A stretch of 64,000 nt of DNA from Nitrospira sp. (lineage in GTDB: Bacteria > Nitrospirota > Nitrospiria > Nitrospirales > Nitrospiraceae), in contig JAUYAO010000044.1 of NCBI GenBank assembly GCA_030692565.1, forward strand, positions 1 to 64,000, given 5' to 3'. The notes beneath the pieces were generated by a model, which saw nothing but the letters and a program-made list of their open reading frames with translations, did no database searches and was not told the DNA's origin. Position 1 is the stretch's first letter. Each line of letters begins with the position of its first letter. A program made the translations under genes and the position numbers. This document shows positions 49,908 through 58,112 of this stretch, piece after piece.

Positions 49908-50432
49908 TTATGAAGGCACCACGTCTTGCACATCGATCTCCACCGCCGCCGCCTGCTGAATCAAGCGAACACCAATCACTAGCCGATGCCGCTTCTCCTT
50001 CCGCAAGAGGAGGCCATGCACACCCCGCAATGGCCCCCGCACCACTTCCACCATCATGCCTTCATGGAGATATGGATGGGGATCATATGGCAGGACACTG
50101 GTCATGAGAGTCTTCAATGCTTCAATCTCTTCATCTGGAATCGGCTCAGGCTGGCTCCCGCTCCCCACAACTTCCACCACGCCGGATACCTTCTGCACGG
50201 GAAGCCTATCCTGCTGCGAAAACCGCACGAAGCAATAGCCTGAAAACAGCGGAACTTCGATCTCCTTCTTGCGATCCTTCCACTGACTAAGCCGTTTCAC
50301 TGTCGGTAGCAACGGCTCAATCCCTTGTTTCTCCAACTGATCTCGCACCAACTTTTCATGGCGCGACCTGGTACGAAGCGCATACCAGCGGGGGGATTGG
50401 TCTGTCTGGTTCGTTTGGTCTGTCTGGTTCAT
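49908..50432 (-). CDS. NusG-like transcription antiterminator (UpxY/RfaH type)
   Basis: A 174-aa protein with an NGN domain ([33 protein letters not shown]) and a C-terminal KOW segment ([20 protein letters not shown]). Operon-specific NusG paralogues (RfaH, UpxY) are encoded at the front of long polysaccharide operons and allow full-length transcription. Its place ahead of the 36-kb glycan locus fits this. The ATG and the first 11 residues ([11 protein letters not shown]) are made of nonamer repeat B, so the native N-terminus has been altered or the start replaced. Confidence 0.88.
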
Positions 50433-50471
50433 CCAGCCTACCCGGACTATTTGGTCGACTTGGTCGTACGT
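50400..50471. repeat. Nonamer array B (GTCTGTCTG type)
   Basis: Eight consecutive 9-bp units: GTCTGTCTG, GTTCGTTTG, GTCTGTCTG, GTTCATCCA, GCCTACCCG, GACTATTTG, GTCGACTTG, GTCGTACGT. The unit at 50427-50435 carries the NusG-like start codon. The unit at 50445-50453 carries the stop codon of the four-helix-bundle gene. It is the only one of the larger arrays without a clear inverted arm. Confidence 0.8.
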
Positions 50472-50827
50472 CGAAGATACTTGATGAGTCCTGAGATGGT
50501 TCTGCCGGTCTTTTCTGCTTGCACATACATGGAGTCAAATTTCTCCGGCGCAGGATACCCCTGATCTACCGCCACATAAAGGTGGCTTTGAACTTCAGCT
50601 GCGGAGGCCACCGCTACAAATAGGAACTGGACAAATTCCTTGTCTGAATGTCGAACGAATCCCTCGGCAATATTCGCCATAACAGAAACGGCCGCGCCTT
50701 GCATTTGCCCACAAAGACGAAGATCCTTTTGCCATTGGGAGCTTTGTCCCACCGCCTCGTACACCAGACGAGTCAACTGCCTAGCTTCCTTCCAACATTC
50801 AAGGTCTTCAAAACGGGTTAATTTCAT
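50447..50827 (-). CDS. Four-helix-bundle protein (23S rRNA intervening-sequence/Avd-like family)
   Basis: A 126-aa protein with the family pattern: FEDLECWKEARQLTRLVYEA, DLRLCGQMQGAAVSVMANIA, EGFVRHSDKEFVQFLFVA and SAAEVQSHLYVA. The family includes proteins encoded in 23S rRNA intervening sequences and the Avd partner of diversity-generating retroelements; it is basic and presumed to bind nucleic acid. No reverse transcriptase or rRNA is near. The gene is bracketed by array C, eight bases upstream of its ATG, and array B, which encodes its last residues (TKSTK) and stop. Confidence 0.88.
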   Translation of the reverse strand: MKLTRFEDLECWKEARQLTRLVYEAVGQSSQWQKDLRLCGQMQGAAVSVMANIAEGFVRHSDKEFVQFLFVAVASAAEVQSHLYVAVDQGYPAPEKFDSMYVQAEKTGRTISGLIKYLRRTTKSTK

Positions 50828-50834
50828 GGTGCGG

Positions 50835-50987
50835 GTCTGTTTGGTCTTTCTGGTCTTTCTGGTCTTTCTGGTCTGTCTGGTCTGTCTGGTCTGTCTGGTG
50901 GGTCCGGTCCCTATGGTCTATCTGATCAACTGACCGAACAGACTAGATAGACCGAATAGACTTCTTCGACCAGATAGACCAGTCTTC
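50835..50987. repeat. Nonamer inverted array C (GTCTGTCTG type)
   Basis: Seventeen 9-bp units in constant phase. The left arm is GTCTGTTTG, three GTCTTTCTG, three GTCTGTCTG, GTGGGTCCG, GTCCCTATG, GTCTATCTG. The right arm is complementary in sense: CCGAACAGA, CTAGATAGA, CCGAATAGA, CTTCTTCGA, CCAGATAGA. GGTCTATCTG (50915-50924) and CAGATAGACC (50971-50980) are exact inverted copies. The array can fold into a long hairpin and sits in the 5' leader of the four-helix-bundle gene. Confidence 0.88.
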
Positions 50988-51049
50988 GGAGACAGCTTCG
51001 CCCTCTCACTTACAGTGAACACAAAGAACTACCTGAGAGTACGGTCTAC

Positions 51050-51637
51050 TCAGGCCGTGGGGCCGAGCGCGAGCACCTTGCCATTCGGAACCTGGTACTG
51101 CACCAGCATTTCTCCGTGTTCATGCGACCGATCGAGATCGGCGAGCACCACGGCATCAAACTCCCACTCTTTCAAGACACTCGGATGCGAGACGGGATAC
51201 GAGAGAAACGTCCCTGCCGTCTCGTCGCTGACAAACCCTACTAACTCCATGTCCATCTCCCGCAACGAGAGGTAGGCCATTTCGGCAAATTCGCTGGTCC
51301 CAAAGATCACAATCCGCCGACCTCCCACCACGGTGACCCGCGACAGGACATCGCGCAAACGGGCGCGCATATCCCGATAGTGCGACAAGGAGTACTGCAT
51401 GTAGAGGTAGGTAAGCCGGGACTTCTCGGCAAATCCTTGAGGCGTCAGCAGATAACGAATCCGGTGAGATGGGATGGTCGTGACTTTGACGTATCCCTTT
51501 CTCGCAAGCCGCTTGAGGTACAGATTCGTGAGACCAAGTGCCACACCTAATTTAATAGCGAGAGACCGCTGCGTGATCGCGCCGTCCCGCTCCAACTCCG
51601 TGAGCAAAATAAGGTCTCGTTGTCCCTGAAGATTCAT
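51050..51637 (-). CDS. Winged-helix transcriptional regulator with C-terminal Rossmann-like domain
   Basis: A 195-aa protein. The N-terminal MarR-like winged helix reads RDLILLTELERDGAITQRSL, then LGVALGLTNLYLKRLARKGY and RIRYLLTPQGFAEKSRL. The second half has VVGGRRIVIFGTSEFAEMAYLSL and LVGFVSDETAG, a nucleotide-binding-like fold. It lies at the head of the O-antigen region and is a candidate regulator of it. The start is uncertain: the ATG at 51637 is chosen, with GTG 51655 and TTG 51682 also in frame. Confidence 0.8.
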   Translation of the reverse strand: MNLQGQRDLILLTELERDGAITQRSLAIKLGVALGLTNLYLKRLARKGYVKVTTIPSHRIRYLLTPQGFAEKSRLTYLYMQYSLSHYRDMRARLRDVLSRVTVVGGRRIVIFGTSEFAEMAYLSLREMDMELVGFVSDETAGTFLSYPVSHPSVLKEWEFDAVVLADLDRSHEHGEMLVQYQVPNGKVLALGPTA

Positions 51638-51764
51638 CTCATTTAGAGGCTCCACTAAAAAACGTTCAGGATATGAACACAATTAGGAGAGGGAGTCAAG
51701 AAAGAATTCCACAATAGGTAGGGATATCAACGATCTAGGGGAAGATTGGCCAAGTCGGCGGCGA

Positions 51765-53928: not shown

Positions 53929-55646
53929 GCTCGCGCATCGGCCAAAATCCACGTCACAGCCTCATCCAGCGACGATGCGACCACTGCCGCATCATTGCCG
54001 GACTCGGACGGGGCCCCTGCTCCATGCTCGCTGGTTGTCACCCACACGCGCTTCGCACCCACCCGTTTGGCCAACTCCATATCTTTGGCATGGTCCCCGA
54101 TGAGATAGGATCGGGACAGATCGATGCCCAGTTCACGCACCGCCTGGTCAACCATCCCCGTCTCAGGCTTCCGGCAGCGACAACGATCGTCCGGATGATG
54201 CGGACACACATAAATCGCATCCAGCAATGCTCCCGCGTCATGCAACAATCGACGAAGCTTCGCATGAATCGCATCAAGATCCCCGGAAGAAAACAATCCC
54301 CGCCCGACTCCCGATTGATTCGTCACCACCACCAGTCGAGCGCCCGCGCGCGTCAGTCTGGCGAGCGCCGCGGCAACACCGGGAAACAATTCGAACTGGT
54401 CAGGGGACCCGATGTACCCGGGATCCGGATTCAGCGTCCCGTCACGATCCAAGAAGACGGTGTAGCCGGAAAGAAGAGTCGTCCGGTCCTTCTTGTCTGT
54501 CTGGTCTGTTCGGTCTGTCTGGTCTGTCTGGTCTGTCTGGTCTGTTCGGTCTGTCTGGTCGGTCTGGTCCGGACTAGATAGACCCGAGAGACGAGATAGA
54601 CTAGACAGACACGCTTCATAGACCATCTCCACCGTCACCCCGGTCATACAGCGATGATCAATGGGGCACTCCCGCAACAGACAGGGCGCGCAATCGACCG
54701 GCTGCCGGACAATCGACGCCTCCTGCCTGTATGGCGCCGTGGTTTTCCAATCGGTGGGACCGAACACGGCCACCACCGGCACCGCAAACGCCGCCGCCAG
54801 GTGCATCGGCCCGGTATCGTTGGTCAGTAAGATGCTGCAGCGTTTGGTCGCCGCCATCAGTTCCCGAATATTCGTCCGCCCCGACAGCACTGCTGACCGT
54901 ACCGTGAGGCGATCTGCCACCGAATGGCCCAACTCCTCTTCGCCCTTCGCCCCGAGAATCACCACGGAGACCGGCCGCCCCTGCTGCTGTTCGATCTGGC
55001 GACAGACCCGCAGCGCAGCCTCCGCATATCGTTCCGGCAGCCATCGCTTAGCGCCGCCGTAGGTTGAACCAGGATTCACGCCGACAACCAGATCGTCCGG
55101 CCCTATGCCAAGATCCCTCAACCGTTCATCCATCGCACGCGTTTCGTTCTCCGAGACCGCCAACGCTGGGACAGACGGCAAACCGTTCACACCGAGCGGC
55201 TTCAACAGGTCCCAATAGTAGTGTACTTGATGCACGAGCGTGGCGCGGTCTGGCCGCGCAACGGGATCGGTCAGCAAAAACGCGCGGCCGTCGGTGACAT
55301 ACCCGTAACGGCGGCGGATACCGGCAAGCCACGTGATCAGCGCCGCCTCAAAGGCATTCTGGAACAACACCGCCAGATCGAACTGATGCCGACGCAGGAG
55401 GCCCGCCAGCGCCCATTTCCCTGACAGTCCCGCATGAATCCCCCGATCATCGTAAACCAACCGGCGATCGATGCCCGGATAGGCAATGAACAGCTCGGCA
55501 ATGGCCGGCTTCGCCAGCAACGTGACCTCCGCGCTGGGAAAGCGCGCGCGCAGCCCGCGCAAAGCCGGCTCGCACATCACCGCATCGCCGATCCAATTCG
55601 GCGCGCGCACCAGAATTCGAGAGGGCGATTCGTTACGCACGCACAT
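53916..55646 (-). CDS. Heptosyltransferase II fused to D,D-heptose 1,7-bisphosphate phosphatase (WaaF-GmhB)
   Basis: A 576-aa fusion. Residues 1-345 are a GT9 enzyme: RILVRAPNWIGDAVMCEPAL (WaaF signature), VGVNPGSTYGGAKRWLPERY and LTNDTGPMHLAAAFAVPVVA. Residues 346-384 are a linker of Leu/Ser units and then (Asp-Gln/Arg-Thr) triplets encoded by array D. Residues from about 391 are a HAD phosphatase: TVFLDRDGTLNPDPGYIG, VVVTNQSGVGRG, CPHHPDDRCRCRKPE and YLIGDHAKDME, matching GmhB. WaaF adds the second heptose; GmhB makes the heptose precursor. A GTG at 55640 is an alternative start with better spacing to GGGAG. Confidence 0.9.
   Translation of the reverse strand: MCVRNESPSRILVRAPNWIGDAVMCEPALRGLRARFPSAEVTLLAKPAIAELFIAYPGIDRRLVYDDRGIHAGLSGKWALAGLLRRHQFDLAVLFQNAFEAALITWLAGIRRRYGYVTDGRAFLLTDPVARPDRATLVHQVHYYWDLLKPLGVNGLPSVPALAVSENETRAMDERLRDLGIGPDDLVVGVNPGSTYGGAKRWLPERYAEAALRVCRQIEQQQGRPVSVVILGAKGEEELGHSVADRLTVRSAVLSGRTNIRELMAATKRCSILLTNDTGPMHLAAAFAVPVVAVFGPTDWKTTAPYRQEASIVRQPVDCAPCLLRECPIDHRCMTGVTVEMVYEACLSSLSRLSGLSSPDQTDQTDRTDQTDQTDQTDRTDQTDKKDRTTLLSGYTVFLDRDGTLNPDPGYIGSPDQFELFPGVAAALARLTRAGARLVVVTNQSGVGRGLFSSGDLDAIHAKLRRLLHDAGALLDAIYVCPHHPDDRCRCRKPETGMVDQAVRELGIDLSRSYLIGDHAKDMELAKRVGAKRVWVTTSEHGAGAPSESGNDAAVVASSLDEAVTWILADARASDS
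54495..54611. repeat. Nonamer inverted array D inside the WaaF-GmhB gene
   Basis: Thirteen 9-bp units in one phase. Eight are GTCTGTCTG, GTCTGTTCG or GTCGGTCTG; next is a centre GTCCGGACT containing the palindrome GTCCGGAC; then AGATAGACC, CGAGAGACG, AGATAGACT, AGACAGACA in inverted sense. As the period is three codons, copy-number change would not shift frame. It encodes the interdomain linker. Confidence 0.9.
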
Positions 55647-56730: not shown

Positions 56731-58112
56731 GGCCTCGCAATCACCGGCCGCGGTCCAGAACCGACAGACCGGAAAGAAGAAGACTGCGCCTGAGATATAC
56801 AGGCTTCGATCAATTCCACACTCCGCCGCAACGCCCCCTGATTGTCCGACACGGTCCGGCGTGCGGCCTCCCCGACCTGGCGACGCGCCGACGAATCCTC
56901 CAGCCACGCGCAAACCGTGCGCGCGAGATCGTCCGCACCGGATACTCGAACGGCACCGCCGGATTCCAAAAGAAGCGTCGCGATTTCCGCACAGTGGTCC
57001 GTATAGGGACCAAAAAGGACCGGCTTTCCCCAGACGGCCGGCTCCAGCAAATTATGCCCGCCCACGGGAATCAGGGTGCCGCCGACAAATGCCACCGTCG
57101 CCTCATGATAGGCCCGGGCCAATTCACCGCGCGTATCGAGGATGATGACTCGCGCCCCGGATCCAACTGATTCAAGCCGGCTCTTGCGCTGCACCGGCAA
57201 ACCCGCCACCTGAACCATCGTCACGACATCGGCGGCCCGCTCGATATGGCGCGGGGCAAGCATGAGAACGGCATGAGGATGGGTGACGACGATCTGCCGA
57301 TAGGCCGCAACCAGCGCCTCCTCCTCGCCCGCGTGCGTGCTCCCGGCGAGAACGAGTGATTCGCCTTCCCGCAGGCCCAACTCAGTACGCAACGACGTAT
57401 CAGCCGCCATCGTCGGCAGAGGCTGATCGAACTTGATGTTGCCGGTCCTATGGACCCGTTCGGCGTCGGCCCCCAGGGCCACGATCCGCTGCACATCACG
57501 CTCCGACTGCATGAGACACAGCGTGAGCGACCGCAGCACCGAACGATAGAACGAAATGAGCCCGGCGATATGCTGCCGGGCAAACGACCGCGACGACAAC
57601 CGTCCGTTCACCATGACAGTCGGCACCTGCCGGTCCCGCAAGGTCCATAAGAGATTCGGCCAGAGTTCGGTCTCGACAAATACATAGAGCACCGGTTGCC
57701 ACTGCGCGATCGCGCGGGACACGGCCCAGGGAACGTCGAGCGGGGCGTAGCGATGCTCGGCGATTCCGACCAGTCGTTGTTCAACCGCCTCGCGTCCCGT
57801 TTCCGTTACCGTCGAGACGATCAGCCGGTGATCGGGATGGCTGCGATGCAGGGCTTTCACCAAGGGCGTGACCGCCACCACTTCACCCAGCGAGACAGCG
57901 TGGATCCAGATGGTCGGTCTCTCTGGTCCGTCTAGTCCATCTGGTCTATTTGGTCTGCCTGCCCGACCAGATAGACAGAACAGACTCGACAGACCGTCCC
58001 CCCCCAACAATCGTTGACGCAAGCCCCTCCGGCACCGTTTTTTGGCGAGCAGAATGCAAAGGATGATCGGCGTAGCCAGTATAAGAAGAATATTGTAGAG
58101 CAGTCGCCACAT
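56727..58112 (-). CDS. waaA: 3-deoxy-D-manno-octulosonic acid transferase (WaaA/KdtA)
   Basis: Transfers KDO from CMP-KDO to lipid IVA. The 461-aa protein starts with the membrane anchor LLYNILLILATPIILCILLA. The catalytic Glu region is WIHAVSLGEVVAVTPLVKAL, then APLDVPWAVSRAI, VETELWPNLLW and GGHNLLEPAVWGKPVLFGP. The start at 58112 (MWRLLYN) is the family start. Residues 39-65 (SSLFCLSGRAGRPNRPDGL and following) are encoded by nonamer array E and have no counterpart in typical WaaA, making the protein about 30 residues longer than usual. Confidence 0.93.
   Translation of the reverse strand: MWRLLYNILLILATPIILCILLAKKRCRRGLRQRLLGGDGLSSLFCLSGRAGRPNRPDGLDGPERPTIWIHAVSLGEVVAVTPLVKALHRSHPDHRLIVSTVTETGREAVEQRLVGIAEHRYAPLDVPWAVSRAIAQWQPVLYVFVETELWPNLLWTLRDRQVPTVMVNGRLSSRSFARQHIAGLISFYRSVLRSLTLCLMQSERDVQRIVALGADAERVHRTGNIKFDQPLPTMAADTSLRTELGLREGESLVLAGSTHAGEEEALVAAYRQIVVTHPHAVLMLAPRHIERAADVVTMVQVAGLPVQRKSRLESVGSGARVIILDTRGELARAYHEATVAFVGGTLIPVGGHNLLEPAVWGKPVLFGPYTDHCAEIATLLLESGGAVRVSGADDLARTVCAWLEDSSARRQVGEAARRTVSDNQGALRRSVELIEACISQAQSSSFRSVGSGPRPVIARP
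57917..57997. repeat. Nonamer inverted array E inside waaA
   Basis: Nine 9-bp units: GTCTCTCTG, GTCCGTCTA, GTCCATCTG, GTCTATTTG, GTCTGCCTG, CCCGACCAG, ATAGACAGA, ACAGACTCG, ACAGACCGT. The first five face the last four in inverted sense. It is in frame and adds about 27 codons between the membrane anchor and the first catalytic motif of WaaA. Confidence 0.82.

Follow-up and report, generated by a model that had tools for sequence, protein, structure and literature searches.

The window analysed here, a 64,000-nt stretch of a Nitrospira sp. contig, contains a small gene for a four-helix-bundle protein placed between a MarR_EPS-like regulator gene and an UpxY-type antiterminator gene. An initial annotation, made from the sequence alone, had described this gene as bracketed by two nonamer arrays and ending within one of them, and both statements were confirmed. 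The features considered below were located as follows.

49908-50432, minus strand: UpxY-family (NusG-like) antiterminator gene, first codons array-encoded
50388-50985, minus strand: whole element, arrays plus gene, missing at the orthologous site in six relatives, which carry ~19-20 nt there instead
~50396-50457, minus strand: downstream array, AGACAGACC-type in gene sense (also given as AGANAGACC)
50447-50827, minus strand: four-helix-bundle protein gene, 126 aa (PF05635, TIGR02436)
50834-50980, minus strand: upstream array hairpin, arms given in gene sense
50834-50924, minus strand, gene sense: proximal upstream arm, AGANAGACC-type
50932-50980, minus strand, gene sense: distal upstream arm, GGTCTNTCT-type
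50989-51015, minus strand: leader motif CTGTAAGTGAGAGGGCGAAGCTGTSTC (also given as CTGTAAGTGAGAGGGCGAAGCTGTGTC), 26-27 nt, kept in the Nitrospira leaders compared
51050-51682, minus strand: upstream regulator, MarR_EPS-like with a score under that model's curated cut-off; the anchor for 51 genomes
54462-54620, plus strand: solo nonamer hairpin in a waaF-gmhB fusion, in frame (array 54485-54610), missing from the sisters
57912-58018, plus strand: solo nonamer hairpin in waaA, in frame (array 57913-57997)

In gene sense, the order was found to be leader motif, distal arm, proximal arm, six bases, ATG, gene, downstream arm and upxY start, with the element immediately downstream of the leader motif. 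The upstream array begins six bases before the ATG of the four-helix gene, and not eight as initially annotated, and on the plus strand it consists of ten GGTCTNTCT-type units followed by the inverted arm. The downstream array overlaps the last codons of the four-helix gene and provides the start codon of the next gene, the UpxY-type antiterminator. The two flanking arrays had TRF scores of 105 and 33. What had been overlooked is that the flanking arrays are complementary to each other, with a unit specific to each locus: three arms are present at the window locus, and both the proximal arm and the downstream array are complementary to the distal upstream one. The upstream hairpin folded at -57.5 kcal/mol (z = -7.8). 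Of the structures folded, it and the solo hairpins were better than shuffles, and the whole-element RNA fold at this locus was not (z = -1.15).

In profile searches, the 126-aa protein scored 96.1 bits against PF05635 (curated cut-off 33.8) and 93 bits against TIGR02436 (cut-off 24), which places it in both families. An AlphaFold2 model (pLDDT 95.6) had its best PDB match in 2gsc (XCC0516), with 2rld also matching, followed by Avd, a protein of diversity-generating retroelements (DGRs) (4dwl), and the DGR ribonucleoprotein 8ub7. Avd shares the same fold (4dwl, TM-score 0.72-0.85). In the literature searched, PF05635 was named in a single paper, on its likeness to Avd, which is cited as a probable relative (PMC10053308). 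Among the neighbours examined at the window locus, neither a reverse transcriptase nor a template or variable repeat was seen. No transposase is present in the 598-bp block, whose sole gene is that of the four-helix bundle. Rfam offered no family for the element, the weak miRNA-like matches being hairpin look-alikes far below the gathering score, and PADLOC gave no match.

The history of the locus could be followed by anchoring on the regulator gene in 51 Nitrospira genomes, in which 49 spacers before upxY were read. Five states were found among them: clean empty spacers of 77-79 nt; short remnants of 87-105 nt; gene-less spacers of 168-195 nt, several of which bore decayed array hairpins; a single element of ~546-660 nt, its protein from either of two clades; and longer or double forms. 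One upxY spacer (L127, G021:C17:3775-4543) held two family members of different clades side by side, one with an internal stop. The 598-bp block was missing from six relatives (G030, G033, G026, G025, G077 and G068), in which the spacer gap is 77-79 nt versus 657 nt in the window, so that the empty sites sought between the NusG-like gene and the regulator do exist. In the sister G030, whose regulator protein is identical and whose flank is 96.6% identical, 19 nt lie between the positions matching window bases 50986 and 50387, versus 598 nt in the window, and the flanking sequences of the two agree up to 37 bp from the junction on the left and ~90 bp from it on the right. G030 and G033 have short stretches that are clearly homologous to each other, so that the simplest reading is an ancestral empty state in this group and a gain of the element in the window lineage. 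Because six relatives are without the block and donor DNA was undetected at the junctions, the block was gained as a unit; thus, 598 bp were recently acquired as one piece in the Nitrospira lineage of the window. The upxY start seen in the relatives is missing from the gained allele, where the array provides a new one.

No target-site duplication was visible at the window junctions, where ~19 nt were replaced. Empty sites of their own were also found for other family copies, and no general duplication was detected across them, the single candidate being ACAAGCTGTA, perhaps a 10-bp repeat on either side of the L141 copy. The junctions look like replacement of short target stretches more than target-site duplication. 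Compared with insertion sequences and MITEs, the window block has neither a transposase nor a visible duplication. The earlier suggestion of a mobile unit, about 590 bp long and lacking a transposase, is well supported, given that the sisters are without exactly this 598-bp block and that other members show both the flanking-array layout and empty sites. The window copy could also have arrived with the upxY leader of another Nitrospira through ordinary homologous recombination, an explanation that we regard as rather improbable. Other Nitrospira do have related elements in the same spacer, and the divergence of the window protein from the proteins of those elements is similar to that of the flanking regulator. 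However, neither donor-like sites nor a donor tract were seen near the window junctions, crossovers would be needed in short conserved stretches on both sides, and two other new arrays of the window, described below, would be left unexplained.

To our knowledge, PF05635 is widespread and nearly unstudied, and the abundance of heptamer arrays in bacteria is without an accepted mechanism. The flanks (up to 6 kb) of 87 family matches in the Nitrospira sample were inspected. Homologues lacking any association with arrays had been held to speak against the initial proposal, and an association was found. Tandem-array coverage was 16-23% within 100 bp of the genes and ~1% beyond 200 bp, and an array of 5-12 bp units occurred within 250 bp of 72 of the 87 matches, on both sides in 44. 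The units vary by gene (AGGCGTG, ATTGGTC, ACTGAGG, AATGTTG and others). Nevertheless, the upstream and downstream units of one gene were reverse complements in 46 of 78 cases at a local-alignment score of 30, a measure that replaced duplex energies between arms, which were too insensitive; the same was true of none of 377 windows further out and of 1.3% of swapped partners. The rule is thus that the two arrays flanking one gene are mutually complementary and that their unit is locus-specific. About 40% of the Nitrospira copies fail the strict arm test, which counts against the explanation favoured below.

The arrays are also ordered in other respects. The 5′ arm is G-rich on the sense strand of the gene in 86 of 94 arm pairs, and a simple ORF call places 62 of 68 genes between two co-directional genes, in the sense of both. 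The period is 7 in most copies, 8 in one clade and 9 in two clades that share the same spacer before upxY, and it changes three times on the protein tree, compared with at least seven changes for shuffled labels. These observations bear on the possibility that the arrays are replication-slippage junk in permissive spacers, in which small expendable genes were parked by chance. This account, for which it can be said that 7-9 mers are common in these genomes and that gene-less solo arrays exist, is very hard to sustain: in the same crude ORF test, complementary flanks were found in 44% of the family and in 1% of the other ORFs of the same loci (5/487, two of the five looking by eye like transposase or integrase genes), the unit is common to both arms of a gene and not shared between genes, the polarity is fixed, and the period follows the tree.

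The family is not confined to Nitrospira. When 84,980 species genomes were scanned, 80 relatives were obtained, which came from many phyla and included a few Nitrospira; 52 of the 73 loci with enough flank had complementary arms above the 99th percentile of controls, the periods being mostly 7 and sometimes 8. Few plasmids carry the gene (42 of 72,556), and these are mostly cyanobacterial, above all from Nostocales, which are known for their heptamer repeats. Complementary arms were present in nine of ten plasmid genes fetched, and these copies occupied spacers such as those of cas6-cas4 and of ribonucleotide reductase genes. In plasmids of Anabaena sp. 90 and Pseudanabaena galeata (L431, L440), cas6 and cas4 of a type I-D CRISPR locus flank the gene, and the P. 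galeata copy has very long arrays in direct instead of inverted orientation. No family gene was found in phage records. In Xanthomonas, the main copy is found at one constant position in 31 of 35 species, and a second copy exists elsewhere in some, the spacers looking like accB-accC and carA-carB when read from flanking sequence alone; the four species without the main copy retain there a gene-less hairpin of GGGACC-type units. Since most copies are syntenic in both Nitrospira and Xanthomonas, movement must be rare and inheritance mostly vertical, which is a further point against the favoured explanation.

Gene-less arrays were also found in the window itself. The repeats that the initial annotation had reported in waaF-gmhB and waaA do exist, and both solo hairpins are new in the window lineage, with the reading frame kept (+30 and +45 nt): at the waaF-gmhB site the sisters have another sequence of ~107-129 nt, and the waaA hairpin replaces 62 nt found in four sisters. 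Hence, the window lineage acquired the gene and two solo arrays of matching unit after its split from G030. Three nonamer array loci within 8 kb are more than expected by chance, and a 20-nt array pattern, allowing up to 2 mismatches, matched only about five other places in the 4.17-Mb genome of the window (G000). Solo nonamer arrays likewise cluster within ~10 kb in four other genomes (G021, G005, G017 and G016). Nonamer array matches numbered 25 in the genome of the window and 0-3 in its five nearest relatives. Across Nitrospira, carriers of the window's protein clade had 0-31 matches (median 17) and the others a median of 1 (p = 0.004, phylogeny ignored), one non-carrier having 35. In Xanthomonas, GGGAATC arrays gave 59-528 matches with the gene and 8-101 without an intact one (p = 0.0007, phylogeny ignored), the value of 101 coming from G103, which has no gene. 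The reversed-pattern control was informative for the Xanthomonas pattern, with counts near zero, and uninformative for the nonamer search because that pattern is nearly its own mirror image.

These counts are relevant to a mechanism resembling that of RAYTs and REPINs, in which the protein would work in trans, copying array hairpins or inserting them around the genome, and the arms beside its own gene would be one of many copies. Such systems also consist of one gene flanked by a repeat together with dispersed gene-less hairpins that are more numerous in carriers, although the window block is without an HUH/Y1 (tyrosine) transposase and its repeat is a tandem 7-9 mer array and not a REP. Higher array counts in the carriers of two genera agree with this mechanism, as do the gain, in the window lineage, of both the gene and a pair of solo arrays sharing its unit, and the match of the arms of the Xanthomonas gene to many dispersed arrays. 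On the other hand, genomes without an intact gene still had 8-101 pattern matches, the array-count statistics ignore phylogeny, and we know of no catalytic site in the four-helix fold. Moreover, a simple matching of dispersed arrays to the arms of the resident gene failed in Xanthomonas G108, whose second-site copy has GGGACCC arms: no GGGACCC arrays were present in a 400-kb sample of that genome. The gene-less GGGACC-type hairpin of the four Xanthomonas species without the main copy is a further point against the mechanism. Spread of solo arrays in trans by the protein is thus correlational in two genera, with one specificity test failed, and we consider this mechanism, which overlaps the favoured explanation as its strongest form, as possible but somewhat short of an even chance. 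The array-generating unit of the initial annotation is accordingly correlational, in that carriers have more arrays, and is in part opposed by the arrays of gene-free genomes, Xanthomonas G103 in particular, abundance without the gene family having been named in advance as contrary evidence.

The closest known counterpart is the intervening sequence (IVS) of 23S rRNA genes. The Coxiella IVS is reported to comprise a stem with an S23 ORF in its loop and to be excised by RNase III; the ORF is preceded by tandem heptamers, two or three in number, that vary among strains, and older proposals of IVS mobility are mentioned as still unproven (PMC4990558). The elements described here resemble the IVSs of Coxiella and Leptospira in protein family, in the placement of the ORF in the loop of a terminal complementary stem and in size (428-444 nt for the IVSs versus ~440-600 bp here). 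In contrast, they reside in protein-coding operons, and their arms are tandem arrays with a locus-specific unit. An S23-family ORF in the loop of complementary arms is the general rule in the family, and the window element lies between the MarR_EPS-like and UpxY genes instead of in a 23S rRNA gene; it would work like an rRNA IVS, yet is none because it lies outside rRNA.

The observed anatomy, the matching arms of each gene, their polarity and the unit-sized gain at the window locus are probably those of a compact, IVS-like stem-loop mobile element, mostly inside operons, whose four-helix protein is encoded in the loop. According to this explanation, two complementary arms of tandem 7-, 8- or 9-nt units would flank one Avd-like four-helix gene, and the element would occupy transcribed spacers, usually within operons, in the sense of the flanking genes. 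Since it is placed in sense within transcribed spacers, the arms could pair in the mRNA and leave the coding sequence as the loop, in the manner of the 23S rRNA IVS. Copies would be gained and lost as a unit in spacers, leaving neighbouring reading frames unbroken, and the arms would change their unit together through slippage and mutual correction, with period and complementarity kept. Position, polarity and IVS precedent suggest that the RNA may fold and be trimmed by RNase III and that the protein may act on its own arms, and it might also help to spread gene-less array hairpins in the manner of RAYTs. The upstream array of the window locus pairs mainly with itself, which counts against this explanation, as do the whole-element fold that is no better than shuffles, the lack of a general target-site duplication, the G108 sample and the disregard of phylogeny in the array-count statistics.

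A different function would follow if the arms and the protein formed a regulatory leader or spacer cassette, that is, an autoregulatory RNA switch for operon control in which the G-rich 5′ arm near the ribosome-binding site would be masked by the 3′ arm, mobility being incidental. The sense orientation within operons, the G-rich 5′ arm, the long-term synteny and the placement between a conserved leader motif and upxY all agree with such a role. It is nonetheless made unlikely by the patchy presence between sister species, by host operons that are functionally unrelated (the Xanthomonas spacers, the plasmids) and by the arrays at 54.5 and 57.9 kb, which lie inside ORFs. The IVS-like mobile element remains our preferred explanation.

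Heptamer repeats of the same array kind, often in inverted pairs, include GGGAATC in Xanthomonas, GGGGA(T/C)T in Nostoc, the cyanobacterial STRRs and the trnL P6b stems, and the arms of the Xanthomonas family gene are themselves GGGAATC (PMC4692102, PMC4476775). The Xanthomonas and Nostoc arrays have been presented as G-quadruplex repeats, many in inverted pairs, with no role assigned and no mention of S23 or four-helix genes, and the genome of Nostoc sp. PCC 7120 is reported to be rich in heptamer arrays (PMC4692102). In the trnL intron of Nostoc, the P6b stems built of heptamers are reported to have been repeatedly replaced (PMC4476775). Apart from the Coxiella IVS heptamers, no link of the family to heptamer arrays was found in the literature searched, which covered few subscription papers. 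The complementary-arm rule connects the orphan PF05635 family with the heptamer arrays of bacterial genomes, may explain the heptamers of the Coxiella rRNA IVS, and provides a testable factor for the origin and spread of arrays, as well as a natural case of paired repeat arms whose sequences change jointly with period and pairing retained. More tentatively, there could be a bacteria-wide mobile class bounded by terminal inverted repeats made of tandem 7-9 nt arrays, with units evolving in step on both arms, whose loop-encoded Avd-like protein would drive both its own movement and the spread of the heptamer arrays long known in cyanobacteria, xanthomonads and others.

Two further observations were made in the spacers compared. 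The 26-27 nt motif before the UpxY-type antiterminator is near-invariant in about 50 Nitrospira genomes, its surroundings being variable, and may be the recruitment site of this antiterminator. Elsewhere, in the spacer that in G030 holds the element L101, G025 (L324) has an ORF that by eye is of DUF559 type (endonuclease-like) between CCCCTCCTT hairpin arms, and the genome of the window (L321, G000:C4) has a short hairpin of the CCCCTCCTT kind inside a heptamer hairpin, so that this spacer possibly harbours a second kind of hairpin-flanked small gene.
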